Assembly (NCBI GenBank): GCA_023663345.1
Contig: JAMPHR010000004.1
Coordinates: forward strand, 68,447 to 122,508
Source: Paenibacillus sp.
GTDB lineage: Bacteria; Bacteroidota; Bacteroidia; Bacteroidales; Muribaculaceae
Length of the DNA: 54,062 nucleotides
Direction: 5' to 3'
A program made the position numbers and the translations under genes. The stretch's first letter is position 1, and each line of letters starts with the position of its first letter. This document shows positions 7,035-50,420 of the stretch, piece by piece. The notes under the pieces are model-generated. The model saw nothing but the letters and a program-made list of their open reading frames with translations, was not told the origin of the DNA and ran no database searches.

Positions 7035-10000
7035 ATGAGAAAAAACGCAATGCGATTTTCAGCGATCTTTACAGCTGTCTTTTTGGCTTTAGGGGGGGCT
7101 AACTCCATTGAAGCTCAGTCAGTTGTAATGTCTGACAATCCCAAAACAGTTGTCTACCGAGGTGAGGTCATCGACGAAGAAGGTGAACCACTACCGGGCG
7201 TGACGGTCAGCATCAAGGGAAAAACGGCTGCCGTAGCTACCGATATTGACGGACGTTTCATCCTTCCCGGCCCCAAAGGGACCAGTACACTCGTTTTCAA
7301 TTCGATAGGCATGAAGCCTATTGAGGTTAGAGCAGGTGCCAATAAATTTGTCACTGTACGCATGGAATCCAATGCCGAACAACTCGGAGAAGTTGTAGCC
7401 AACGGTATTTACACACGTAACATCGAGAGCTTCACAGGTTCAGTATCATCATTCAATAAAGATGATCTGAAAATGATCAGCTCCAACAACATTCTCAAGA
7501 GTCTGTCGGCGCTTGATCCATCGATCATTATGCCCGAGAATACTCTTATGGGATCAGACCCTAATACAATGCCGAAGTTCACAATCAACGGTGAAATGAA
7601 TCCCCAGGCACTCGCGCAGGAATATGAGACAGACCCCAACCAGCCTCTTTTCATCCTTGACGGATTCGAGTCGACACTCCAAGCTATTAACGACCTTAAC
7701 ATGGACCGTATCGAGAGCATCCACATTCTTAAGGATGCTTCCGCTACAGCTATTTACGGTTCAAAAGCCGCAAACGGTGTGATCGTTGTCGAGACCAAAA
7801 GGCCTGAGGCCGGCCGTCTGCAGCTCAGCTATAACGGTACTCTCCAGTTTGCATGGGCCGACCTTTCAGATTATAACCTCATGAACTCGGAACAGAAGCT
7901 ACAATACGAGCTTCTCTCCGGCGAATATGGCACTCTTGGCGAAGACGGTCTCCCCATAGGAGAAAGCAATAGAAATGCCTACTACAACCGTCGTAGGCTT
8001 GTAGATATGGGAAATAATACGTACTGGATGAATGAACCTCTCCGTACTGCTATCTCACAGACACACAATGTGTATATTCAAGGTGGCGACCCGTCATTCC
8101 GCTATGGTGCCGGTCTATCCTACAACAAGAATGAGGGTGTCATGAAAGGGTCAAATCGAGATGTCATCAACGGTAATGTAAATCTTACATATCGCGTTGA
8201 CAATTTCAATTTCACTAATCAGACCACAATCAACAATGTGAGTTCTGACAGTGAAACTGTTGCATTCAGCGAATTCTCGAAAATGAATCCTTTTTACTCC
8301 AAATATGATGATTACACCGGAGAAGCTCCTAAATATGTATATCGGGATGGTGATTCTTATGTTTGGAACCCAATATGGGATATGCAACAGAACAGTTTCA
8401 AGAAAAGCGACATTACGAGCATAACCAATAATTTCCAGTTTGAGTGGCGTGCAACACGTCAATTACGTCTACGTGGTAACTTCCAGTACCAAATGCAAAA
8501 AACCACCAACGAGACATATAAATCACCCAACGAAACATCACAAGCTCAGCTGGACGTTCTGAAGAGAGGTAGCTATACCAACCAAAACTCAACAGCCAAT
8601 AGCTATAATGGGCGTATAAACGCCACTTATGGTACTGCCATCGGCAACAATACTATCAACGTTGTCGGCGGTATGCAGTTCTCGGAGAAAAATAACAAAT
8701 CGTATTCTTTTGGTGCTCAAGGCTATACGAGCGATACATTTTGGAACCCCAACTTCTCTCAAGGCTATCCCGAAGGGAAACCGTCCTCATCTGATTCTAA
8801 GACCCGAAATGTAAGTTACTATGCCAATGGTAACTACTCCTACGACATGAAGTATCTTCTCGATTTCAACTGGAGTATGAGTGGCGCTTCTCAGTTCGGT
8901 ATCAATGACCCGTTTACATCCACATGGTCGGTTGGTATCGGTTGGAATGTACACAATGAAAAATGGTTTAAAGCATCCAATGTCGTAAACTATCTCAAAA
9001 TCAGAGCTTCTTATGGTAATCCCGGAAACCAGAACTATGATGCAAAACTTGCAGCTTCAATATATGCGTTTCTCGATGATTATTCCAATCCATTTGGAAT
9101 CGCCAATATTATAGATCAATGGGGTAACAACGGACTGAAATGGCAGAAGACCAATACATATAACGTTGGTATCACCACAACTTTGTTCAACAACAAGCTG
9201 TCTCTTAACGCTGATTACCAGATCCGCAAAACAGATCCTCAGCTCGTCCGTATAGACCTTCCAGGTTCCACCGGTGTTTCCTCCGCACCTATGAATGTCG
9301 GTGGCACAGATAACCGTTCCATCAGTCTCAGTGCAACATACTATATTATAAAGAAATATGATTTCAGTTGGTATATCAGTGGTAATATGAACCACTACTC
9401 CACCAAGTATTACGGCATAGGCAATCTTCTTGAGCAATACAATGAAGAAGGTCGTGCATCAAGCACATCTCTCACACGCATTTATGATGGAGCAAGCATT
9501 TCCGGACTGTATGCTGTACGTTCACTCGGTATCGATCCCGCGACTGGTAACGAATTGCTACTGAAGAAGAATGGCACCCCTACCTATGAATGGAATTCCG
9601 ATGACGAAGTACTCATCGGAGACTCCACTCCTGATATCCAAGGCAACTTCTCAACCTCATTCCTCTATAAAGGATTCTCGTTCGGAGCTTCATTCTCATT
9701 CAAGATGGGTGGAGATGTGACACTATCCACACTCATGGATAAAGTAGAAAACATCGGTGCTGATGCTCGACAATACAATCAAGATGTTCGCGCTCTGACC
9801 GACCGTTGGAAGAAACCGGGCGATATCGCCAAATACAAGCGTATTGATGATACCTCAACGTCTCATATTACAACGCGCTTCATCAAGACGGAGAATACAC
9901 TCACCTGTGGATCCATCAATATCGGCTACAGGACATCAACAGCAAAATTCCTTAATACTATCGGTGCATCTTCGGTTGATCTCCGCTTCTACATGAACGA

Positions 10001-10091
10001 CATCTTCCGTATCTCGAATATCAAGGAGGAACGCGGTCTGAGCTATCCGTTCCAACGCTCATGCTCAATGTCTCTCGGACTGAGCTTCTAA
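7035..10091 (+). CDS. SusC/RagA-family TonB-dependent outer-membrane transporter
   Basis: The 1018-aa protein has a signal peptide (residues 1-28), then a carboxypeptidase-regulatory-like domain (about 40-110, GEVIDEEGEPLPGVTVSIKG). The plug follows (about 120-250), including the family signature ILKDASATAIYGSKAANGV (231-249). The rest is a 22-strand barrel ending in Phe. There is no N-terminal STN domain, so it is not of the ECF/anti-sigma signalling type. With SusD it should form a lidded 'pedal-bin' importer for glycans or peptides. It is first in an operon with susD 25 bp downstream. Substrate cannot be read from sequence; no glycoside hydrolase is in the locus, while a secreted protease lies downstream. 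Confidence 0.96.
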   Translation: MRKNAMRFSAIFTAVFLALGGANSIEAQSVVMSDNPKTVVYRGEVIDEEGEPLPGVTVSIKGKTAAVATDIDGRFILPGPKGTSTLVFNSIGMKPIEVRAGANKFVTVRMESNAEQLGEVVANGIYTRNIESFTGSVSSFNKDDLKMISSNNILKSLSALDPSIIMPENTLMGSDPNTMPKFTINGEMNPQALAQEYETDPNQPLFILDGFESTLQAINDLNMDRIESIHILKDASATAIYGSKAANGVIVVETKRPEAGRLQLSYNGTLQFAWADLSDYNLMNSEQKLQYELLSGEYGTLGEDGLPIGESNRNAYYNRRRLVDMGNNTYWMNEPLRTAISQTHNVYIQGGDPSFRYGAGLSYNKNEGVMKGSNRDVINGNVNLTYRVDNFNFTNQTTINNVSSDSETVAFSEFSKMNPFYSKYDDYTGEAPKYVYRDGDSYVWNPIWDMQQNSFKKSDITSITNNFQFEWRATRQLRLRGNFQYQMQKTTNETYKSPNETSQAQLDVLKRGSYTNQNSTANSYNGRINATYGTAIGNNTINVVGGMQFSEKNNKSYSFGAQGYTSDTFWNPNFSQGYPEGKPSSSDSKTRNVSYYANGNYSYDMKYLLDFNWSMSGASQFGINDPFTSTWSVGIGWNVHNEKWFKASNVVNYLKIRASYGNPGNQNYDAKLAASIYAFLDDYSNPFGIANIIDQWGNNGLKWQKTNTYNVGITTTLFNNKLSLNADYQIRKTDPQLVRIDLPGSTGVSSAPMNVGGTDNRSISLSATYYIIKKYDFSWYISGNMNHYSTKYYGIGNLLEQYNEEGRASSTSLTRIYDGASISGLYAVRSLGIDPATGNELLLKKNGTPTYEWNSDDEVLIGDSTPDIQGNFSTSFLYKGFSFGASFSFKMGGDVTLSTLMDKVENIGADARQYNQDVRALTDRWKKPGDIAKYKRIDDTSTSHITTRFIKTENTLTCGSINIGYRTSTAKFLNTIGASSVDLRFYMNDIFRISNIKEERGLSYPFQRSCSMSLGLSF

Positions 10092-10116
10092 TCTTAAATT
10101 TCTAAAGGATTTTAAA

Positions 10117-11643
10117 ATGAAAAAAACTATTATAAAGGTTGCTGCATCTGCATCTATATTGCTCTCCCTTTCCTCCTGCTCGGATTGGTTGCAGGTTGAG
10201 ATGGAGGACAAGATCATGGAACCGGTGCTCTTCAGCAACTACCCAGGATATGTGGCAGCTCTTAATGGAGTATATATGTCATTAAATGAATATTACACTA
10301 CAGGATCTCTCAATGATATTCTTGATGTAATGGCACAGTACTACTACGTGACAGACGACATGAGAGATAATACCTATAGGATATACCAATCGTATAGCTT
10401 CAGTGATGCCGGTTTTGAAAGCAAGAATGGCGTATTATGGAATAAGGCTTATACCCTTATCGCCAACACCAATACTATACTTGATCATCTCACAAGCGTC
10501 GGCGATACTCCGTTAAGCCAAACCCAATACAATGTCCTTCGTGGTGAAGCATTAGCCATGAGAGCAATGCTTCATTTCGATGTACTTCGCCGACATGGTG
10601 CGATATATGCTACCAATCCTGATGCCGAAACGATACCATATCAGGACGATACCAGCCGTGAAATCAAGCCATTCCTGACAAATAAAGCAATAATGGAACG
10701 CATCATTGGTGATCTGGCCGAAGCATCTTCATTGCTCAAGGAGTCCGACCCGATTATCACTGAGGGCATCAAAGACACTCAAGTAGAAGACAATGGCGTG
10801 GCAAGCTATGACATGTCATTCCGTCAACTTCGATTGAACTATTATGCCGTTCAGGGTCTTCTTGCACGTGCATACCAGTGGATTGGAGACAAAACCAATG
10901 CATACAGAATAGCCAAGGAAGAAATCATTGATAAGGTAACAACTGAATCACTTGAAGTATTCCCCTGGATTACCGATGAGCGTGTTCATGCCGATGGTAA
11001 GCCCGACCTGATGTTCTCTACTGAGGTTATGTTTTCGCTTTACCATAACACAAGGAGCAAGTATAATAGTGCAGTATTTGCATCAAGCTTATCTTCTTCC
11101 CGGCGTCTCACATTTTATGGAGAGAATAAAGATGGCGAAGACTCCAAGGTAGGACTTCTGTATGACTACGTAAATGATTATCGCCGTGATCAATGGAGCT
11201 TGGCTGATCCTCCTCAGGGTGCTGGAGATGATGATAATCCAATCGGAACCACATTGTATCTAACAAAGTATGATGATTTTAAAAGCGGTGCAACCGAAGA
11301 GACATTCCGTTACATGCTTCCAATGATACGTCTGAGCGAAATGTACTTGATAGCTGCAGAATCTGCATCTAATGTTGACGAAGCCTATAGGTTATTGAAT
11401 GAAGTCCGTCTCCATCGAAATTGTCCGAGCCTGGAAACCAGCGGTAATTTCAATGTCGATTTATTATATGAATTCACAAGAGAGATGCTCGCAGAAGGAC
11501 AATTGTATTATTTCTATAAGCGTCGCCAAGAGACACGCATCATAAGCCGTACAGGTTCCTATGACTTTAATATGCTACTCTCCAATTATATATGGCCAAT
11601 TCCTGAAGCCGAACTAAACAAACGTACACATTCAGGTAAGTAA
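10117..11643 (+). CDS. SusD/RagB-family nutrient-binding lipoprotein
   Basis: The 508-aa protein has a lipobox (LLSLSSC, Cys21), so it is lipidated and surface-anchored. The N-terminal region holds the helical TPR-like scaffold of the family (NGVLWNKAYTLIANTNTIL, then LRGEALAMRAMLHFDVLRRHG). The C-terminal part carries the typical LPMIRLSEMYLIAAESA segment followed by LLNEVRLHR. It serves as the lid and ligand-binding partner of the upstream SusC-like transporter. It is 25 bp from susC and 20 bp from the next gene, consistent with one transcript. Length is normal for the family. Confidence 0.96.
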   Translation: MKKTIIKVAASASILLSLSSCSDWLQVEMEDKIMEPVLFSNYPGYVAALNGVYMSLNEYYTTGSLNDILDVMAQYYYVTDDMRDNTYRIYQSYSFSDAGFESKNGVLWNKAYTLIANTNTILDHLTSVGDTPLSQTQYNVLRGEALAMRAMLHFDVLRRHGAIYATNPDAETIPYQDDTSREIKPFLTNKAIMERIIGDLAEASSLLKESDPIITEGIKDTQVEDNGVASYDMSFRQLRLNYYAVQGLLARAYQWIGDKTNAYRIAKEEIIDKVTTESLEVFPWITDERVHADGKPDLMFSTEVMFSLYHNTRSKYNSAVFASSLSSSRRLTFYGENKDGEDSKVGLLYDYVNDYRRDQWSLADPPQGAGDDDNPIGTTLYLTKYDDFKSGATEETFRYMLPMIRLSEMYLIAAESASNVDEAYRLLNEVRLHRNCPSLETSGNFNVDLLYEFTREMLAEGQLYYFYKRRQETRIISRTGSYDFNMLLSNYIWPIPEAELNKRTHSGK

Positions 11644-11663
11644 TTCTTTCTAAAGATAAGGAC

Positions 11664-12566
11664 ATGAAAAAATTAATATATCTCACTTTTATCCTTACCA
11701 TAACATCATTATGGTCCGGATGTACCAAGGAAGACATCGATCTATATAGTGGCATGGACGCTTTATATTTCTCACAACAATGGGGTGTTGCCACTTTTGA
11801 AAATAACATAGATCCCACCGGAGGCGGTAAAAATATGCAACAAGCCTATTCTAAAATAGGTTTTGGCGGAATTGCTCAGACCGATTCTCTCCTGAGATTG
11901 AATATCCAAGTGGCAGGATCAGTAAAAGATTACGACCGTCCTTTTGGCATCGAAGTGGTTAATGATAGCACAACTGCATTGGAAGGTGTCGAGTTTGAAC
12001 TTGTAGCTCCTGAAGAAGATGCTGTTATTCGTGCCGGACAAACCCGTACCTTGGTAAGAATACTATTCCATAAGACTGAGCGCATGGATGATGAGAATCT
12101 ACTGCTTCAGGTCAGATTAGTGCCTGGCGAACATTTCGTTCTTCCATTTGATACTGCCGGATATGGTAAAATGCCGATTATTCACAATTCTGCAACTCTG
12201 CTAAATGAATACAACCATTTGAATCTCGATCCATCTATCCATAATATTTTCATCAATAATTTCCTTGTTTCTCCTCCTGGATGGGTTGATAATTTCATGG
12301 GTATATGGTCAGAGACTAAGATGCGAATTCTTCTTGACACTACCAATGAACGTCTTGGCTGGACAATCGACACATGGAATGACAATGCTAACATGTGGCC
12401 ACCAGCTACCCGCTATACAATGGCCCAGACACTTCTTGCCGAGTACTTATTGGAGCAGTACAACAAAGGCCGTGAATACTGGGTTCTTGATCCTGATGGA
12501 ACAATGATGTGGTGCCCGAGCTCACTACTTCCCTGGGGAGAGGATTCAAGACCTGAATACATGTAA
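11664..12566 (+). CDS. DUF4843 lipoprotein of the SusCD locus
   Basis: The 300-aa protein has a lipobox ending SGC (Cys20), followed by TKEDID. This acidic stretch resembles the Bacteroidetes lipoprotein export signal, so it is probably surface-exposed. The body has the DUF4843 look: a conserved YSGMDALYFSQQ start and beta-rich segments (FGIEVVNDSTTALEGVEF, AGQTRTLVRILFHKTERM). This family usually occurs behind susD-like genes and is followed by a PKD-like protein, as here. Its function is unproven; a ligand-binding or complex-forming role with SusD is inferred from location. The gap to the next gene is 33 bp. Confidence 0.8.
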   Translation: MKKLIYLTFILTITSLWSGCTKEDIDLYSGMDALYFSQQWGVATFENNIDPTGGGKNMQQAYSKIGFGGIAQTDSLLRLNIQVAGSVKDYDRPFGIEVVNDSTTALEGVEFELVAPEEDAVIRAGQTRTLVRILFHKTERMDDENLLLQVRLVPGEHFVLPFDTAGYGKMPIIHNSATLLNEYNHLNLDPSIHNIFINNFLVSPPGWVDNFMGIWSETKMRILLDTTNERLGWTIDTWNDNANMWPPATRYTMAQTLLAEYLLEQYNKGREYWVLDPDGTMMWCPSSLLPWGEDSRPEYM

Positions 12567-12599
12567 TTTGTAATAATAGCCGTACTAATATTTCAAATA

Positions 12600-14231
12600 A
12601 TGAAAACTAAATTATATATCTCACTGTTCGCTATCGGGCTGTTGTCGACAGCCTGTGTCGAGGATGAGACCAACTACGACATCACTCCTATCAATGAAAT
12701 CTCCATTGGAGGATTGGAAGATAACTACTATGGAATGGCCTATAATGATGTGATTTCAATCAAGCCTGAAATCACAGGTTCCCTTTCCGGAGATGACCTT
12801 TCCAACTACGAATACACGTGGTATCGTTGTGGAGGCAACCATGTACATGACACTATAAGTCATGACAAAGATCTGGAATGGTTGGCTCAAGCATCTCCAG
12901 GCACACATAGTCTTTATCTCGTTGTTAGAGATAAGGCTACTGGCTATGAGAAGAATCTAAGCACTAATCTTGTGCTTTCTTCTCCATTCACCAGAGGATT
13001 TCTTATCCTCGGCAACCGTCCTCATTCCGACAACATGATTGGATTGGATATGCTCACAATGATTCAAGGTAAGAATGATACAATCTATGCCAAGGACGTA
13101 TTTGACAATTCCGAGACGAAAATCCGGAATGCCAAGGCTATGTACCTTACCGGCAATTCTCGAACCAACCGTTTTTACATTCAGACTGAGGATGATACGT
13201 ACAATCCAATCTTCACTAATGAACAGACTCTTGAATCCATCGGTGAGGAGTTTAATGACCTTGGCTTAATAGAATGTCTCGAACCTCATAAAACGCCCAT
13301 AAAGCTTATTGGCTTGGCGCTACAAAAGGGAGAAGGAAATAGATATGCGGCCGCTCTTAGCCAGGTGCCTCGATTCTATTTAACAGAAGATCAGTTTTTT
13401 GGGCACAAGGGTACTGAAAAGATGAATCAACCGATCAACAGGTATACCAATACCTCTAAGCAATTTTTCAAATTCTATCCCTATATTTTCTATAATACAA
13501 GGAAGAATTTATCACATGCCCAAACAGACTATAGCAGTCAATATTCGCCTGTAATCTTGTATGATACTGACAACGACTGCTTCTCATACGTAATAGGTTC
13601 TGCCCTTGGCTTTACCCACATGGGACAAATATCAAATACGGTTGTATTACAGCAATTAGGAATCTATCTGATGAATCAGCCCAACGGACGAACTTTGGTT
13701 TATGGAGAAAACGATCATAGACTTTCCAGTGGTCGTTGTAATTTCATCATGAAGGATAACGATGACAAATATTGTCTGTATCGTTTTGAGTTAGGCTTCC
13801 CTTCAATGGGATGGAACCCTCAACCTGCAATCCGAAATCCATATTTCTGTAATCTTGATATCGCATCAATGACCGGATTCCTGGATCGTGAGCATATTTT
13901 CTTTGCCTCCGGTGCCACCTCCTTAATATATTATTCAGTAGGCAATACTTTATATGCTTACGATTATGTGGCAAAGAGACTCGAAAGCAAACAGTTTGAT
14001 GGAAACATCACATATCTTGCACCTGAATTCGTTTCTCCTAGAGAAAACAATCTTACAAATGACGCGACCAATTATTGGGTTGCAACTTTCGACGGCAACA
14101 AAGGACATCTTTATAAGATGAAGACGATTGAAAATGCTGACAAGATCGAATTCACACATTTGGATGGTCAAGACTGGGAAATAGATCTTGAAATTAAGTC
14201 AGTTCTATGGAAAGATGGTGCTATATACTAA
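12600..14231 (+). CDS. PKD-like family surface lipoprotein
   Basis: The 543-aa protein has the lipobox STAC (Cys19) followed by VEDE, which predicts surface display. An Ig/PKD-like beta domain follows (about 45-125; YEYTWYRCGGNHVHDT, then a GTHSLYLVVRDKATG strand typical of PKD folds). After it comes a long region with repeated beta-hairpins that could form a propeller. It matches the PKD-like proteins that follow DUF4843 genes in SusCD loci. It is last in the operon and is followed by a hairpin terminator. A role in substrate capture at the cell surface is inferred. Confidence 0.75.
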   Translation: MKTKLYISLFAIGLLSTACVEDETNYDITPINEISIGGLEDNYYGMAYNDVISIKPEITGSLSGDDLSNYEYTWYRCGGNHVHDTISHDKDLEWLAQASPGTHSLYLVVRDKATGYEKNLSTNLVLSSPFTRGFLILGNRPHSDNMIGLDMLTMIQGKNDTIYAKDVFDNSETKIRNAKAMYLTGNSRTNRFYIQTEDDTYNPIFTNEQTLESIGEEFNDLGLIECLEPHKTPIKLIGLALQKGEGNRYAAALSQVPRFYLTEDQFFGHKGTEKMNQPINRYTNTSKQFFKFYPYIFYNTRKNLSHAQTDYSSQYSPVILYDTDNDCFSYVIGSALGFTHMGQISNTVVLQQLGIYLMNQPNGRTLVYGENDHRLSSGRCNFIMKDNDDKYCLYRFELGFPSMGWNPQPAIRNPYFCNLDIASMTGFLDREHIFFASGATSLIYYSVGNTLYAYDYVAKRLESKQFDGNITYLAPEFVSPRENNLTNDATNYWVATFDGNKGHLYKMKTIENADKIEFTHLDGQDWEIDLEIKSVLWKDGAIY

Positions 14232-40969: not shown

Positions 40970-41500
40970 ATGAAGAAGAAACTTTTCAGCATCGCTCTTG
41001 CATTCGCCTGCCTTGCAGGCCCTGTAGCCGTATCGGCCCAGACTCCTGCCTCAACTCCACAGAACAAGGAGCAGAAGGCATGTTGCAAGGATGGCAAACA
41101 GCAGAAGCGCCCCAACCCGTTTGACGGGCTGAACCTCTCCGAGAAGCAGCAATCCGAGCTCAAGGCGCTCGCCGAAAGCCGCAGGGCCGAGATGAAGAAA
41201 AACGACGCCGATCGCAAGGCCCGTAAAGCCGAGGACAAGGCCAAGAAACAGCAGGCCAAGGCTGATAAGATGCAGGCCCGCAAGGACTATCTCGCAAAGA
41301 TCAAGGGCATACTCACTCCCGAGCAGTATGTACAGTTCCTCGAGAACTCTTTCCTCAACGACCGTGGCGGCATGGTCATGGGACATGGCAAAAAAGGCAA
41401 GATGCACCACAGCAAGCCCGGAAAGGACGGCAAGCACAAGGGTGGCCCGCGGGGACAGAAACCCGCCCAGCCTCAGGCCGACAAGCAGAACGCCAACTGA
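40970..41500 (+). CDS. Secreted DUF4890/Spy-like basic protein
   Basis: The 176-aa protein has a signal peptide (MKKKLFSIALAFACLAGPVAVSAQ). A DUF4890-like segment follows, with LSEKQQSELKALAESR and later ILTPEQYVQFLEN, resembling the two LTxxQ-type helices of Spy/CpxP chaperones. A Lys/Ala/Glu-rich helix joins them. The C-terminus is Lys/His/Gly-rich and could bind metal or anions. It is monocistronic, convergent with kdgK across a strong terminator. A role as an envelope-stress periplasmic protein is inferred from the family. Confidence 0.75.
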   Translation: MKKKLFSIALAFACLAGPVAVSAQTPASTPQNKEQKACCKDGKQQKRPNPFDGLNLSEKQQSELKALAESRRAEMKKNDADRKARKAEDKAKKQQAKADKMQARKDYLAKIKGILTPEQYVQFLENSFLNDRGGMVMGHGKKGKMHHSKPGKDGKHKGGPRGQKPAQPQADKQNAN

Positions 41501-41672: not shown

Positions 41673-42695
41673 TTAGCGCTGTACGCGACCGTTGGCGTTA
41701 CCACCGGCGAGCGACTTAACTTCGTCAACCGATACGAGGTTGAAGTCACCGGGGATAGTGTGCTTGAGAGCCGATGCGGCCACAGCAAACTCGAGAGCGT
41801 CAGCCTGGTTGTCCATGGTAAGAAGACCGTGGATCACACCACCCGAGAACGAGTCACCACCACCTACGCGGTCAATGATGGGGTTGATGTCGTAACGCTT
41901 GGACTCGTAGAACTCCTCGCCATTGTAGATCATAGCCTTCCAGCCATTGTGGGTAGCCGAGAACGACTCGCGGAGTGTGGAGATCACATACTTAAAACCA
42001 AACTCCTTGGCCATAGCCTTGAAGATACCCTTGTATCCCTCGGCGTTGGTCTCGCCACCTTCTACGTCAGCATCGGGCTTGAAGCCGAGACACAGCTCAG
42101 CATCCTCCTCGTTACCGATGCACACGTCAACGTACTGCATGAGAGGACGCATGATTGACTGAGCCTTCTCCTTGGTCCAGAGCTTCTTGCGGAAGTTGAG
42201 GTCAACCGATACGGTCACGCCGTGACGCTTGGCAGCCTCACATGCGAGACGGGTAAGCTCGGCAGCCTTGTCCGAGATAGCAGGGGTAATACCGCTCCAG
42301 TGGAACCAGTCGGCACCTTCCATGATTGCATCGAAATCGAAATCCTCGGGATCAGCCTCAGAGATAGCTGAGTGAGCACGGTCATAGATCACCTTGGAGG
42401 GACGCATGGATGCGCCGGTCTCGCAGTAATATATACCTACGCGCTCGCCACCACGTGCGATGTGGTCGGTGTGAACGCCATAACGGCGGAGGGCGTTGAG
42501 AGCGGCCTGACCGATCTCATGCTTGGGGAGTTTTGACACGAAATATGCGTCATGGCCATAGTTGGCGCAGCTTACGGCTACATTAGCCTCGCCGCCACCC
42601 CAGATGACGTCAAAATTGTCTACCTGTACGAATCGATAGTTCCCGGCAGGGGAAAGGCGGAGCATGATCTCGCCTAAAGTAACTACTTTACTCAT
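41673..42695 (-). CDS. kdgK: 2-dehydro-3-deoxygluconokinase (KDG kinase)
   Basis: The 340-aa PfkB kinase has TLGEIMLRLSPAG at the N-terminus, the GGGEANVAVSCA substrate motif and the DRVGGGDSFSGGVIHGL ATP/anion-hole motif. The sequence resembles KDG kinases, and context supports this: kduI and kduD lie in the same gene series. It makes KDPG for cleavage to pyruvate and glyceraldehyde-3-phosphate; the aldolase gene is not in the window. The ATG at 42695 removes an apparent overlap with the upstream gene. Confidence 0.9.
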   Translation of the reverse strand: MSKVVTLGEIMLRLSPAGNYRFVQVDNFDVIWGGGEANVAVSCANYGHDAYFVSKLPKHEIGQAALNALRRYGVHTDHIARGGERVGIYYCETGASMRPSKVIYDRAHSAISEADPEDFDFDAIMEGADWFHWSGITPAISDKAAELTRLACEAAKRHGVTVSVDLNFRKKLWTKEKAQSIMRPLMQYVDVCIGNEEDAELCLGFKPDADVEGGETNAEGYKGIFKAMAKEFGFKYVISTLRESFSATHNGWKAMIYNGEEFYESKRYDINPIIDRVGGGDSFSGGVIHGLLTMDNQADALEFAVAASALKHTIPGDFNLVSVDEVKSLAGGNANGRVQR

Positions 42696-42747: not shown

Positions 42748-44085
42748 TCATTCAGGTGCATTATGCCGAGCTTCATCGGCATCTATGCCCTCCATAAGTC
42801 TCTTGGCATCGACATACTTGATGATTCCTTCGGCCACCATCTTGGCATCCTGCATTGCATGGACAACAGTGGCTGGACGATTGGTGACATCACCTCCGGC
42901 AAACACGCCACGGCGGGTAGTCATTCCGTAAGGGGTCTCACGGGTGAGCACATATCCTTTTGGATCGACATCTATACCCTCGGTAGTGGAAACAATGCGT
43001 GATGCCGGAGCGCTACCCACGGCCAGGATCACTCTGTCGACATCCATGCGGGACTTTTCGCCCTCGGTGTCTACCGTAATGCTTCGCAAGCGATTGTCGT
43101 CGCCACCCTCGATCTCGGTCACCGAGGATTTCCATAGGAACTTCACGCCCTCGGCCACAGCGTCATCATACTCAGCTTTCAAGGCGCTCATCTCGTTGAC
43201 GGTGCGGTGATAGATAACCGTGACTTCCGACGATCCCATACGCAAGGCTGTACGGGCAGCATCGATTGCGGTATTTCCGCATCCTATCACGGCCACTTTA
43301 TCGCCATTGCCCACTATCACCTCCTTACGGTCAATGAAGCCCGACTGGTAGAGACTCACCCTGCGCAGAAACCATATAGCCTGGCGCACTCCGGGATGAT
43401 CAATCCCGGGGATCGGGAGCTTCTTGGGTTTGCCGGTTCCGGTGCCCATGAATATGGCATCGAATCCGCGGGCGAAAAGGTCATCGATAGTGAAATCGCG
43501 ACCTATTGTGGTCATGAGATGGAATGTGACGCCAAGATTCTCGATCTTCTTTATCTCGCGACGCACCACTTCCTTGGGTAAGCGGTACTCGGGGATACCG
43601 AACATCAACACGCCTCCGGGCTCGGATTCCATCTCGAATATCTCTACCTTGAAACCCTTACGGGCAAGATCGCCCGCGATAGTCAGTCCGGCAGGACCAC
43701 TGCCTATCACGGCAACCGATCCACGCGTCTTTTCCGGTATGGCCTCGTGGGTGAGACCTGCGGCACAGTCAAAATCGGCAACGAACCGCTCGAGCTTACC
43801 TATGTTGATATGCTCGCCCTTTTTATTAAGCACGCAACTTCCCTCACACTGCCTCTCGTGACCGCACACGCGACCACACACGGCAGGGAGATTACTGCGT
43901 GTATTGATTATTGACATTGCATTGCCAAAGTTTCCCTTGGCGAGTTCCGCGATCCACTCAGGAATATCATTGCTGATAGGACACCCCTTCTTACACAAGG
44001 GCACCTTGCAGTGCAGACACCTCTGTGCCTCATGCACCGCCTCGGGAAGAGTGTAATTCTCGGATACTTCCTTAAATTCGTTCAT
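42748..44085 (-). CDS. Second GltA/GltD-type Fe-S flavoprotein
   Basis: The 445-aa paralogue of NfnB has CLHCKVPLCKKGCPI and CGRVCGHERQCEGSC cluster motifs. VIGSGPAGLTIAG binds FAD and VIGCGNTAIDAARTA binds NAD(P). There is no adjacent NfnA-like subunit and no glutamate synthase large subunit. It sits between kduI and kdgK, 52 bp before the latter. It may recycle NAD(P)H made or used by KduD or act with a remote partner; its real electron partner is unknown. Confidence 0.85.
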   Translation of the reverse strand: MNEFKEVSENYTLPEAVHEAQRCLHCKVPLCKKGCPISNDIPEWIAELAKGNFGNAMSIINTRSNLPAVCGRVCGHERQCEGSCVLNKKGEHINIGKLERFVADFDCAAGLTHEAIPEKTRGSVAVIGSGPAGLTIAGDLARKGFKVEIFEMESEPGGVLMFGIPEYRLPKEVVRREIKKIENLGVTFHLMTTIGRDFTIDDLFARGFDAIFMGTGTGKPKKLPIPGIDHPGVRQAIWFLRRVSLYQSGFIDRKEVIVGNGDKVAVIGCGNTAIDAARTALRMGSSEVTVIYHRTVNEMSALKAEYDDAVAEGVKFLWKSSVTEIEGGDDNRLRSITVDTEGEKSRMDVDRVILAVGSAPASRIVSTTEGIDVDPKGYVLTRETPYGMTTRRGVFAGGDVTNRPATVVHAMQDAKMVAEGIIKYVDAKRLMEGIDADEARHNAPE

Positions 44086-44155: not shown

Positions 44156-44202
44156 TTACACTATGCGTGCATTCCTTTTTTTCAGGATCACGCATAGTGT
44201 AA
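44156..44202. repeat. Inverted repeat between kduI and the GltA-like gene
   Basis: TTACACTATGCGTG (44156-44169) and CACGCATAGTGTAA (44189-44202) are perfect 14-bp arms around a T-rich 19-base loop. No U-run follows on either strand, so it could be an operator, a processing site or a weak terminator. Confidence 0.6.
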
Positions 44203-44248: not shown

Positions 44249-45169
44249 TTACTTCATCTCGGGATAGGTGATCTTGTCCATGTCGCCATAGTTGAGGTTC
44301 TCTCCACCCATGCCCCAGATGAACATGTAGTTGGAGGTACCTGCAGCAGCATGAATCGACCACTCGGGCGACATGATGGCCTGCTCATTGTGGAGCCAAA
44401 CCACGCGGTTCTCCTGGGGCTCGCCCATGAGATGGCAGATGGCATTTCCTTCAGGAACATTGAAATAGAAGTAAGCCTCCACACGACGGTCGTGAGTGTG
44501 GGCAGGCATGGTGTTCCACACGCTACCGGGCTTGAGCTCGGTAAGGCCCATCTGGAGCTGGCAGGGACCCTCCTCAAGCACATTGTTCACGATGAGCTGG
44601 TTGATCACGCGGTCGTTGCTCTCCTCCATCGATCCGGCGGCAAAGCTATTGGCCTTGATCGAACCCTTGCGGCCATCAATGGTGATGAGCTGGGTCTTGT
44701 AAGCCTTGTGGGCGGGAGTGGAGTTGAGATAGAATTTCGCGGGATTGGAAGCATCCTTGCTGCGGAAAGTCACCTTCTTGTTGCCACGTCCCACATAGAG
44801 GGCGTCCTTAAAGCGGAGTTCGTAATCCTTGCCATCGACAGTCACGATACCGTCACCACCGATATTGATCACACCCAGCTCGCGACGCTCGAGGAAATAC
44901 TCGGCCTTGAGCGGATCAATAGTCTCAAGCTCCATGACCTTGGACACGGGGATAACTCCACCGAATATCAAGCGGTCATACATCGAGTAAGTGAGATTGA
45001 TCTTGTCCTGCTCCATGACCTTGGGCATCATGAAACGTGAACGCAACTGGGCGGTGTCATAATGCTTGACATCATCGGGATGACAAGCTCTCTGGACGGT
45101 ATATTCAGTCTGAGCCATAGCAGAAATTGAGGCTAATGCAAGTGAAACTGTAAGAAAAATCTTTTTCAT
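44249..45169 (-). CDS. kduI: 5-keto-4-deoxyuronate isomerase with export signal
   Basis: The 306-aa protein is a clear Kdu[16 protein letters not shown] and [15 protein letters not shown], then metal ligands HTHDRRVE (His224, His226, Glu231) and SIH (His273). It converts 5-keto-4-deoxyuronate to DKII. Known KduI proteins are cytoplasmic and about 280 aa. Here the N-terminus [20 protein letters not shown] is a typical signal peptide (charged end, hydrophobic core, AMAQ cleavage site) placed before the normal KduI start. A periplasmic location is therefore predicted. It follows the EIIC gene by 8 bp. Confidence 0.93.
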
Positions 45170-45177
45170 TATAGTAG

Positions 45178-46599
45178 TTATTCTGTTGTTTCGATAGTAT
45201 CGGAATTCTTGGCAATCATATTATTCTGATTGCGTATAATCAGCACGCGGTTCCACACCATGAGGCCAAGCGTGATCAGCACAAGGATGCCGGCACCAAT
45301 CCACTTGAGGCCGATCGAGCACTGATAGATGACCCAAGCGAGAGGACTTGATGCAAAATCGAGGCTTCCGCCATCAAAATTGGCAGGGATGGCCACGGCA
45401 GCATCGCCTGTAGCGGCAAACACGTCCTTGGCGGCGAGAGTGAACGCCGGAGCGAGGTTGGTGACAAAGTAAAGACCGATAGTGAGGACTACGAGACCCA
45501 CAATAAAGGTTTTCACCACACTACCCTTGGTATAAGGAAGCACGAGGGGGAACACATAGAACATGCCGGCAAGCGATGCGAGCGGCAGGAACTGGTTGCC
45601 GGGAAGCGCCACAGCGAGCATGAGGGTCACGGGGATCAGAAGAATCGACACCACGAGAGTGGTGGGATGACCGATCACAAGCGCGGGGGTCATACCGATG
45701 TTGAGACCGTCGGCGCCCTTGAACTTACGGGCCACAAGGCTACGGGTAGCCTCGCTGATAGGACGCAAGCCTTCGATGAACAGCACGGTCACACGGGGGA
45801 TAAGTTCCATGACGGCACCCATCTTGATACCGAGGCCGAGGATGTAAGGGATCTTCTCGACGATCTCGTTCCATGTATTACATGTGAGGCAACCTATCAC
45901 CACTCCCACTACGACACCGAGGAACAACGGCTCGCCGAGCAAGCCGAACTTCTTCTTAAGGCCCTCGGCATCGATCTCGAGCTTATTCATTCCGGGAATA
46001 GCATCAAGCCCCTTGTTGATAGCCCATGCGAAAGGCACGAAACCGGCACAGAAAGGCTGAGGAATCGAAATGCCGTCCATATCCTTGTAGAAGCCCTGAA
46101 ACTTCTTGGCGGTCATGTCGGCGATAATGAGTGTGAGAATGTAGCAGATTATAGCACCGAAGAATCCCCACATGATGGAATCGCTCGCAAAATATATGAT
46201 CGCGCCGATAAACGCGAAGTGCCAGTAGTTCCACAGGTCGATATTTACGGTGCGGGTAGTCTTGGTAATAAGCATCAGGAGGTTAACACCCAGACATACC
46301 GGGATGATAAACGCTCCGACAGCTGTATTGTAGGCCACCGATGCGGCAGCCGGCCAGCCCATATCAAACACTTTGAGCTGGAGATCGTATATATTTACCA
46401 CGGTATCAAGCGCCGGGCCGAGAGCGGTGGTGAGAAGGGCTGTCACAATCGACAGGCCGATGAAACCAACGCCAACCTTAAGTCCCGATTTCAGCGCATC
46501 GCCAAACTTGATGCCGATACAGAGGCCGAGCACGGTAAAGATGATAGGCATCATCACTGCCGCGCCCAGTCCTATGATATAGGAAAATACCTGTTCCAT
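45178..46599 (-). CDS. GatC-like PTS EIIC permease without EIIA/EIIB partners
   Basis: The 473-aa protein has about 10-12 hydrophobic segments and resembles galactitol-type [18 protein letters not shown], then [30 protein letters not shown], and [17 protein letters not shown]. In the PTS, EIIC translocates sugar while EIIB phosphorylates it. No EIIA, EIIB, HPr or EI gene is here, and Bacteroidales generally lack a full PTS. The ATG overlaps kduD's stop by 1 base (TAATG). Transport of DKII, KDG or another uronate without phosphorylation is inferred. Confidence 0.87.
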
Positions 46600-47393
46600 T
46601 ATTTAGGTTGCTTTCCTATGTAAGCCAGTATGCCTCCGTCGACATACAGCACATGTCCGTTCACAAAGTCAGAAGCATCCGAAGCAAGGAACACGGCCGG
46701 TCCCATCAGATCCTCGGGTGTACCCCAGCGTGCGGCCGGAGTCTTGGAGATGATGAACTGGTCAAACGGATGACGGCTTCCGTCGGGCTGGATCTCACGC
46801 AGAGGAGCAGTCTGCTCGGTAGCGATATAGCCCGGGCCGATACCGTTGCACTGGATGTTGTACTCACCAAACTCGGAGCAGATGTTGCGGGTAAGCATCT
46901 TGAGACCACCCTTGGCAGCCGCATAAGCGCTTACTGTCTCACGGCCAAGCTCGCTCATCATCGAACATACGTTGATGATCTTACCGTGACCCTTCTTGAT
47001 CATTCCGGGAATTACAGCCTTGGCGCAGATATAGGGAGCGATGAGATCCACATCGACAACGCGACGGAAATCCTCAACATTCATCTCGGTCATGGGGATA
47101 CGCTTGATAATACCGGCATTGTTCACAAGAATATCGATTGTGCCTACAGTTGCCTCGATGTCAGCGACCATAGCCTTGACAGCGGCCTCGTCGGTCACGT
47201 CGCAAAGATAGCCCTTTGCATCGATTCCAAGCTCTTTGTAAGCCTTCATGCCACGGTCGACAGTCTCCTGGCGAGAGCAGTTGAACACTATCTTTGCACC
47301 TGCTTCAGCATAGGCCTGGGCAATAGCGAGGCCGATACCGTAAGCCGCGCCGGTCACAAGGGCCACCTTGCCCTCGAGAGAAAAGTTTACCAT
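46599..47393 (-). CDS. kduD: 2-dehydro-3-deoxy-D-gluconate 5-dehydrogenase (SDR)
   Basis: The 264-aa classical SDR has TGAAYGIG for NAD(P) binding, NNAGI, and SAYAAAKGG with the catalytic Tyr/Lys. It reduces DKII to KDG, the step between KduI and KdgK. There is no signal peptide, so the enzyme is cytoplasmic. The ATG at 47393 is used; upstream in-frame residues are not SDR-like. A TACCTTTG -7 box is about 50 bases upstream. It is the first gene of the operon. Confidence 0.88.
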   Translation of the reverse strand: MVNFSLEGKVALVTGAAYGIGLAIAQAYAEAGAKIVFNCSRQETVDRGMKAYKELGIDAKGYLCDVTDEAAVKAMVADIEATVGTIDILVNNAGIIKRIPMTEMNVEDFRRVVDVDLIAPYICAKAVIPGMIKKGHGKIINVCSMMSELGRETVSAYAAAKGGLKMLTRNICSEFGEYNIQCNGIGPGYIATEQTAPLREIQPDGSRHPFDQFIISKTPAARWGTPEDLMGPAVFLASDASDFVNGHVLYVDGGILAYIGKQPK

Positions 47394-49748: not shown

Positions 49749-50420
49749 TTACCATTCATATCCGATGGTCACTCCGACATTGTTCATCGTGACCGATCCG
49801 GACTTCCAATAGTAGTTGTGATTGGAGGTCAACAGCTGATAGGATATACCCACATTGAACGCCTGACGGCTGTTCTTGGTGTTGACGGGGATACGCACGC
49901 CTATTGTCGGTTTCAGATAGAACTGGGTTTCGTTGGACAAATAAGCATTCTCCATGCGCAGATAGCTTGAGCCCAACAGCCATGCGGCACCTACTTTCAG
50001 ATCAATGAACGCCGATACCGACGACTCGTTGCCGAGATTGAAGCGGAAATCGGTGAAAACAGGTATCATCACCTTGGTCTTGGTAGTCTCATAGTAATCA
50101 TACGGATCCTGCGGGGCTTCGGTGCCGAGCAGATCGTGGCCCTGAGACATGGCGACATCCACGCCGAGACCTACACCCATGAAGAACCATGACGTGTACC
50201 TGAATCCCTGGCTTGTGGAAATACCTATGAAGTTAGCCCGGTTGTCACCGATACCGGCCGTACCGCTGAAATCCACATAGCCTTTATAATTCAGACCTCC
50301 GGACAATGCCGGAGAGAGCAGACTCGGAATCTGGTTGGCTATTTCATAATACTGCGCGCGGGCCGGGACCGATACCATCAACAGCGCGAAAGCAATGGCC
50401 GAGAAGAGTAAGCGTTTCAT
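49749..50420 (-). CDS. Small outer-membrane beta-barrel protein
   Basis: The 223-aa protein has a signal peptide (residues 1-22, ending ARAQ). Alternating polar/aromatic strands follow (GFRYTSWFFMGVGLGVDVAM, then KVMIPVFTDFRFNLG). The last strand ends in Trp (NNVGVTIGYEW), the usual signal for barrel insertion. Size fits an 8-stranded barrel of the OmpX/OprF-N type. Function is unknown. It lies downstream of pfp but is separated from it by a terminator. Confidence 0.8.
   Translation of the reverse strand: MKRLLFSAIAFALLMVSVPARAQYYEIANQIPSLLSPALSGGLNYKGYVDFSGTAGIGDNRANFIGISTSQGFRYTSWFFMGVGLGVDVAMSQGHDLLGTEAPQDPYDYYETTKTKVMIPVFTDFRFNLGNESSVSAFIDLKVGAAWLLGSSYLRMENAYLSNETQFYLKPTIGVRIPVNTKNSRQAFNVGISYQLLTSNHNYYWKSGSVTMNNVGVTIGYEW

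Follow-up and report, generated by a model that had tools for sequence, protein, structure and literature searches.

The KduI isomerase encoded in the window, by which we mean the whole 54,062-nucleotide stretch of DNA analysed, is very probably exported, judging by its sequence and those of its relatives. Its gene (44249..45169, minus strand; 306 aa, ATG start) has directly upstream of it an EIIC-GAT permease gene which ends 8 nt before kduI, a neighbour absent from the first-pass annotation. We lean towards reading this EIIC-kduI pair as an import module of two genes: the isomerase would act on the outer side of the inner membrane, and a PTS carrier which has lost its phosphorylation machinery would import the product DK-II (3-deoxy-D-glycero-2,5-hexodiulosonate). 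The features concerned, each with its evidence, are as follows.

45113..45169, minus strand: predicted KduI signal peptide, residues 1-19, with predicted signal peptidase I (SPI) cleavage before Gln20 (sequence; layout conserved in the clade)
44249..45112, minus strand: KduI enzyme body after the predicted cut (NF002091, 401 bits; PDB 9kd0, 545 bits; 1xru, 292 bits)
44498..44500, minus strand: His224, putative metal ligand (alignment to 1xru; 103 of 105 aligned KduI rows)
44492..44494, minus strand: His226, putative metal ligand (alignment to 1xru; 105 of 105 rows)
44477..44479, minus strand: Glu231, putative metal ligand (alignment to 1xru; 104 of 105 rows)
44351..44353, minus strand: His273, putative metal ligand (alignment to 1xru; 104 of 105 rows)
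45178..46599, minus strand: stand-alone EIIC-GAT permease, putative DK-II importer (PF03611, 259 bits; TIGR00827, 378.9 bits, below the cut-off of 542.2)
46599..47393, minus strand: SDR reductase with a putative DhuD/KduD role and without a signal peptide; the ORF begins with TTG, and Met22 was chosen as the start (NF005488, 500 bits, cut-off 369)
41673..42695, minus strand: kinase of the KdgK type for 2-keto-3-deoxygluconate, with Met30 of its ORF chosen as the start (NF041332, 255 bits, below the cut-off of 440; PF00294, 111 bits)

In a profile search the KduI model NF002091 covered residues 25-305 at 401 bits (cut-off 250), and PF04962 also matched the protein (82 bits, cut-off 23.9). As the NF002091 match starts at residue 25, the leader is not part of the enzyme body. 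The earlier claim that a signal peptide directly precedes a normal KduI body thus held, with n-region, core and A-x-A site all recognisable. A genome search recovered a single KduI from the genome of the window (86.6% complete), so the sole KduI found there is the leader-bearing copy. We take His224, His226, Glu231 and His273 to be its metal-binding positions. These putative ligands align with the motifs of E. coli KduI (1xru), in agreement with the first-pass annotation, which had described all four as intact. By eye, a perfect 14-bp inverted repeat (TTACACTATGCGTG / CACGCATAGTGTAA) with a 19-bp spacer was seen at 44156-44202, in the gap which separates the 3' end of kduI from the following gene; it is a candidate terminator or operator.

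E. coli KduI is described as cytosolic. Its structures (PDB 1XRU, 1X8M) align with the window KduI over the whole enzyme body and the metal-ligand motif at 292 bits, with the match beginning at residue 6 of the chain, which leaves no room for a leader. The closest solved relative was PDB 9kd0 (545 bits), in which residue 2 of the chain aligns with the Gln at the predicted cut. Two entries have accession codes neighbouring 9kd0: 9kcz, which resembles the cytosolic KduI type, and 9kd1, a reductase. Given the mature-form chain and these neighbouring codes, another group may already hold the signal finding, and 9kd0 may pre-empt part of what we report for exported KduI.

The KduI leader comprises an MKK / KK n-region, a hydrophobic core and an AMA/Q cut site, and contains no lipobox Cys. 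Signal peptides were called with our own crude rule (threshold 1.9), whose false-positive rate was 2.2% (39 of 1758 internal 30-mers from five soluble window proteins). The rule was also passed by 1913 of 10000 shuffles of KduI residues 2-30, because the composition of this segment is itself signal-like. Hence conservation, rather than any single sequence, carries the signal-peptide argument. The rule was passed by 90 of 164 KduI loci, which include the same contigs from two collections (L009/L060, L027/L062, L032/L082) and so are not independent genomes. Two narrow misses, L022 (MKKFLTGIALMSMSLTGMAQ) and L068 (MKKIISIALGLAAVIPMAAQ), have a similar look, both being MKK-led and hydrophobic. Over the 58 signal-bearing rows with an identity of 70% or more, the window copy being one of them, residues 4-19 averaged 40% identity to that copy against 86% for the KduI body. 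The layout of the leader is thus kept whilst its letters diverge, as expected of a signal peptide. The cut site took the form A-x-A/Q in 53 of the 90 signal-bearing loci, and Cys29, which might conceivably serve in a disulfide stabilising the exported enzyme, was present in 58 of 63 signal-bearing rows. A similar leader style was noted on other window proteins, for example at 40970-41500 and 49749-50420.

It is highly improbable that KduI is instead cytosolic, whether through a true translation start at Met18 or with the leader as a relic. Met18 is an in-frame ATG right before the KduI body and would yield a product of canonical length, but Met occupied position -2 of the cut site in only 17 of the 90 signal-bearing loci, mostly those nearest the window, and Ser was commoner there (33/90). 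Moreover, the charge, hydrophobic core and cut site of the leader were kept in 90 of 164 loci, and Met1 sits 8 nt past the stop of the upstream gene, the usual operon spacing. With Met conserved so rarely, a start at the codon 18 ATG was rejected, and with it the internal start after the hydrophobic segment which the first-pass annotation had raised against its own proposal. Export of KduI through Sec and SPI is strongly supported by clade-wide conservation of the signal and by the lack of conservation of an internal start.

The signal recurs over a KduI clade of Muribaculaceae, Bacteroides, Phocaeicola and Prevotella; B. clarus and Phocaeicola sartorii are among the carriers of the EIIC-kduI pair (L093, L091). 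In a same-family search KduI was found in 61 of 198 genomes, 59 of which had a copy aligned from residues 1-10; the remaining two matches (G059, G181) were fragments. The order search matched 103 of 393 genomes, most from about residue 15 or later, and the phylum search 103 of 395, of which just three (the genome of the window, G427 and G548) aligned from residue 1. The loci which we named are the best 80 of 586 and hence biased to close relatives; 59 of them make up the leader clade.

Homologues with N-terminal extensions had been proposed for mapping on a tree, and their distribution bore out the idea of a conserved leader: in a tree of 104 proteins, built with the N-terminal columns removed, a branch with support 78, not starred, set the 63 rule-passing rows, the two near-misses and five doubtful rows apart from the remainder. 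Under the rule's own labels the first tree needed six changes of the signal trait. Under adjusted labels the tree of 104 proteins, from which the long-branch L167 was omitted, needed one, counting L022 and L068 as signal-bearing and leaving five doubtful Verrucomicrobiota/Kiritimatiellota rows uncounted. Several independent gains of the signal, hinted at by the divergent L122, L127, L148 and L149, were thus unsupported. The association of signal and EIIC has essentially one origin and has been kept over a long time, and it therefore reflects co-inheritance and not many independent events; to this is added the shared presence or absence of the two across genomes of one family. Three genomes carry both KduI types, namely G667 (L165/L167), G768 (L166/L168) and G969 (L170/L169). 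In each, the exported kduI lies beside EIIC and the cytosolic kduI beside a reductase.

EIIC usually lies just upstream of exported kduI. Among the best 80 of 586 loci, EIIC was present in 55 of the 59 clade loci and leader and EIIC together in 50; the spacing between the two genes was at most 200 bp in 45 of those 50 and 568-1701 bp in the other five. One leader-bearing locus, L069, has only 103 bases of upstream sequence, and L068, whose leader narrowly misses the rule, does have EIIC. The other 21 of these 80 loci had no leader and no EIIC in their flanking sequence, which is short for a few, such as L124. As an overlooked leader is likeliest in loci with long open frames, a further 20 cytosolic kduI loci were picked mostly on that criterion; they gave no signals and no EIIC. 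A whole-genome search with PF03611 extended this pattern, finding EIIC-GAT in 16 of 16 and 35 of 35 exported-KduI genomes, in none of the 21 cytosolic-KduI genomes searched and in none of 18 KduI-less relatives. Applied to the N-termini from these genomes, our rule passed 50 of the 51 exported copies and none of the 21 cytosolic ones; the sole miss, in G054 (locus L022), scored 1.86 against 1.9.

These counts bear on whether the permease imports the KduI product. KduI could be periplasmic and EIIC carry something else, or act as an exporter, with DK-II entering elsewhere, for example through an ExuT-like MFS carrier. A gene for such a carrier, which could be the importer, was found in 18 of the 59 clade loci (among the best 80 of 586), but EIIC was the more constant partner, at 55 of 59, and across the 90 genomes searched it was present in all 51 with an exported KduI and in none of the 39 without. 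We therefore regard a different cargo for EIIC as rather unlikely.

The window permease is a nearly full-length homologue of the galactitol PTS permease GatC (EIIC-GAT; PDB 9u82, 275 bits), with which it shares PF03611. It differs from the galactitol system in falling below the TIGR00827 cut-off and in its missing partners: IIB, the EI N-domain and HPr were each found in 0 of 16 exported-KduI genomes, in a search which covered these three components and had positive controls. With no EI, HPr or IIB match in these 16 genomes the permease is not expected to function as a PTS, and a working PTS was rejected on the basis of these three components. A related behaviour has been deduced in an E. coli strain lacking ptsI, where, according to the accessible part of the report, a mutated galactitol-type PTS carrier lets xylose in without phosphorylating it; the IIA and IIB genes are present in that strain (PMC10989795).

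The strict pairing of signal and EIIC is weakened by the transferred Verrucomicrobiota/Kiritimatiellota group. In L103, L105, L106 and L108 EIIC is retained, but the N-terminus is shortened and fails our rule; L099 and L102 have the signal and no EIIC in the flanking sequence examined, and L109 has neither. The Kiritimatiellota-type copies (L103, L105, L106, L109) begin MNMIAIMLATTVNFTVQ or similar, a short uncharged hydrophobic stub, and EIIC is kept in three of these four, L109 being the exception. L108, from Verrucomicrobiota, also has a truncated stub, so that EIIC lies nearby in four of these five stub-bearing loci. In the Kiritimatiellota copies export may have been lost after transfer, or an unusual signal may be in use. 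Taken jointly with the import-module reading, spread of the EIIC-kduI module to Verrucomicrobiota and Kiritimatiellota is somewhat favoured.

The neighbouring genes supply candidates for the remaining steps. In the window the SDR stop codon and the EIIC start share 1 nt. The SDR scored 500 bits with NF005488 (gluconate 5-dehydrogenase), above the cut-off of 369, and 226 bits with the kduD model TIGR01832, below the cut-off of 338.85, with structure matches to PDB 3cxr, 4z9x, 9kd1 and 4u8g. A GltD-like glutamate synthase small-subunit gene (42748-44085) lies between kduI and kdgK, as it does in several relatives, and a KdgK-type kinase gene is also found near EIIC-kduI in related loci. Among the 59 clade loci (of the best 80 of 586), flanking genes included SDR in 20, KdgK in 11, DUF4861 in 10, GH105 and pectinesterase in 8 each and KdgA in 7. 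DUF4861 proteins were seen beside kduI clusters at L060:3366-4592, L065:2387-3583, L103:5159-5971, L220 and L221, those of L060 and L065 having a lipoprotein-like start, and a possible role is an extra periplasmic step in handling unsaturated uronates. DUF4861 was ruled out as a partner specific to exported KduI, since it adjoins cytosolic kduI too. Elsewhere in the window, a SusC-size ORF (1018 aa) and SusD-like, DUF4843 and PKD-like genes stand in a row at 7035-14231, a polysaccharide utilisation-like locus by its gene content, with no obvious enzyme among the genes scanned (the SusC-size ORF lay outside the scan).

Combining these elements, we consider probable a scheme of periplasmic isomerisation, DK-II import through EIIC and cytosolic reduction. 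The KduI precursor would be exported by Sec, cut by SPI before Gln20 and folded in the periplasm. Secreted GH88/GH105 hydrolases, acting on lyase products, would free 5-keto-4-deoxyuronate (DKI/DHU), which periplasmic KduI would convert to DK-II. EIIC-GAT, as a secondary carrier or facilitator, would pass DK-II, or a DKI/DK-II mixture, to the cytosol, where the SDR reductase would make 2-keto-3-deoxygluconate and KdgK and KdgA would complete the pathway. From the sequences we infer where KduI is located, what EIIC carries and in which direction, and that isomerisation precedes import. The first-pass annotation had already proposed isomerisation before import. That order gains from EIIC accompanying exported but not cytosolic KduI in the genomes tested and from the GH88/GH105 enzymes of genome G000, and loses from the Verrucomicrobiota/Kiritimatiellota group, which breaks strict KduI/EIIC pairing.

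GH88/GH105 matches of at least 300 bits were found in seven of eight exported-KduI genomes, three of three cytosolic-KduI genomes and none of nine KduI-less genomes. As cytosolic-KduI genomes are also strong in these families, GH88/GH105 does not distinguish the exported type. G427 has exported KduI and EIIC, yet its GH88 is weak (best 46.8 bits). G000 had five GH88/GH105 hits, and the three inspected by eye have leader-like starts. One of them is a GH28-GH88 fusion protein with a leader-like start (L174, G000 C16), about 6 kb from the UxaC gene; this region is likely a pectin locus. The accessible part of a review places Bacteroides GH88 in the periplasm, where it frees 5-keto-4-deoxyuronate from glycosaminoglycans, and names a putative hexose transporter, BT4653, for desulfated monosaccharides and, in that part, no importer specific to 5-keto-4-deoxyuronate (PMC9067506).

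Another substrate has also to be weighed, as periplasmic KduI might isomerise intact hexuronates (galacturonate or glucuronate) and EIIC import the resulting keto-sugar. UxaC is the usual enzyme for the hexuronate isomerisation step. It is already present in 15 of 16 genomes tested, which weakens the idea of KduI as a UxaC stand-in. The DKI-route reductase, kdgK and kdgA genes occur in many of the same clusters as EIIC-kduI, and the catalytic residues of the window KduI match those of ordinary KduI. Some observations do fit a hexuronate substrate: according to the accessible part of one report, E. coli KduI contributes under osmotic stress to the conversion of galacturonate and glucuronate (PMC3578941), and 8 of the 59 clade loci among the best 80 of 586 have pectinesterase and GH105 genes close to EIIC-kduI. 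On balance a hexuronate role is quite unlikely, and we retain DKI as the proposed substrate.

Among the nearest described systems are the Bacteroidota type E kduI-dhuD clusters (PMC12838403), which, in the accessible part of that survey of isomerase-reductase clusters, combine the same isomerase family with a DhuD-like reductase and so resemble the window locus with its putative DhuD-type enzyme. By contrast, the partner of exported KduI is EIIC, and the reductase gene was present in the flanking sequence of 20 of the 59 clade loci (best 80 of 586). The words 'signal' and 'PTS' are absent from the accessible main text of that survey. We found no description of exported KduI or its EIIC partner in the accessible portions of the open-licence literature, including PMC12838403, PMC12269599, PMC6045597, PMC5028390, PMC8993927 and PMC3578941.

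KduI is normally an intracellular enzyme in the breakdown of pectin and glycosaminoglycan sugars, and the export signal and lone carrier suggest that here the rearrangement takes place outside the inner membrane, before uptake. The resulting genomic rule separates two uptake routes, one recognised by a signal-bearing KduI together with EIIC and the other by a cytosolic KduI next to its reductase. Should KduI indeed act ahead of import, the order of steps given in textbooks would not hold for this large group. An orphan family with the annotation galactitol PTS IIC would then gain a directly testable substrate, and the scheme would account for the uptake, in these gut Bacteroidales, of the unsaturated uronate which their periplasmic hydrolases release.
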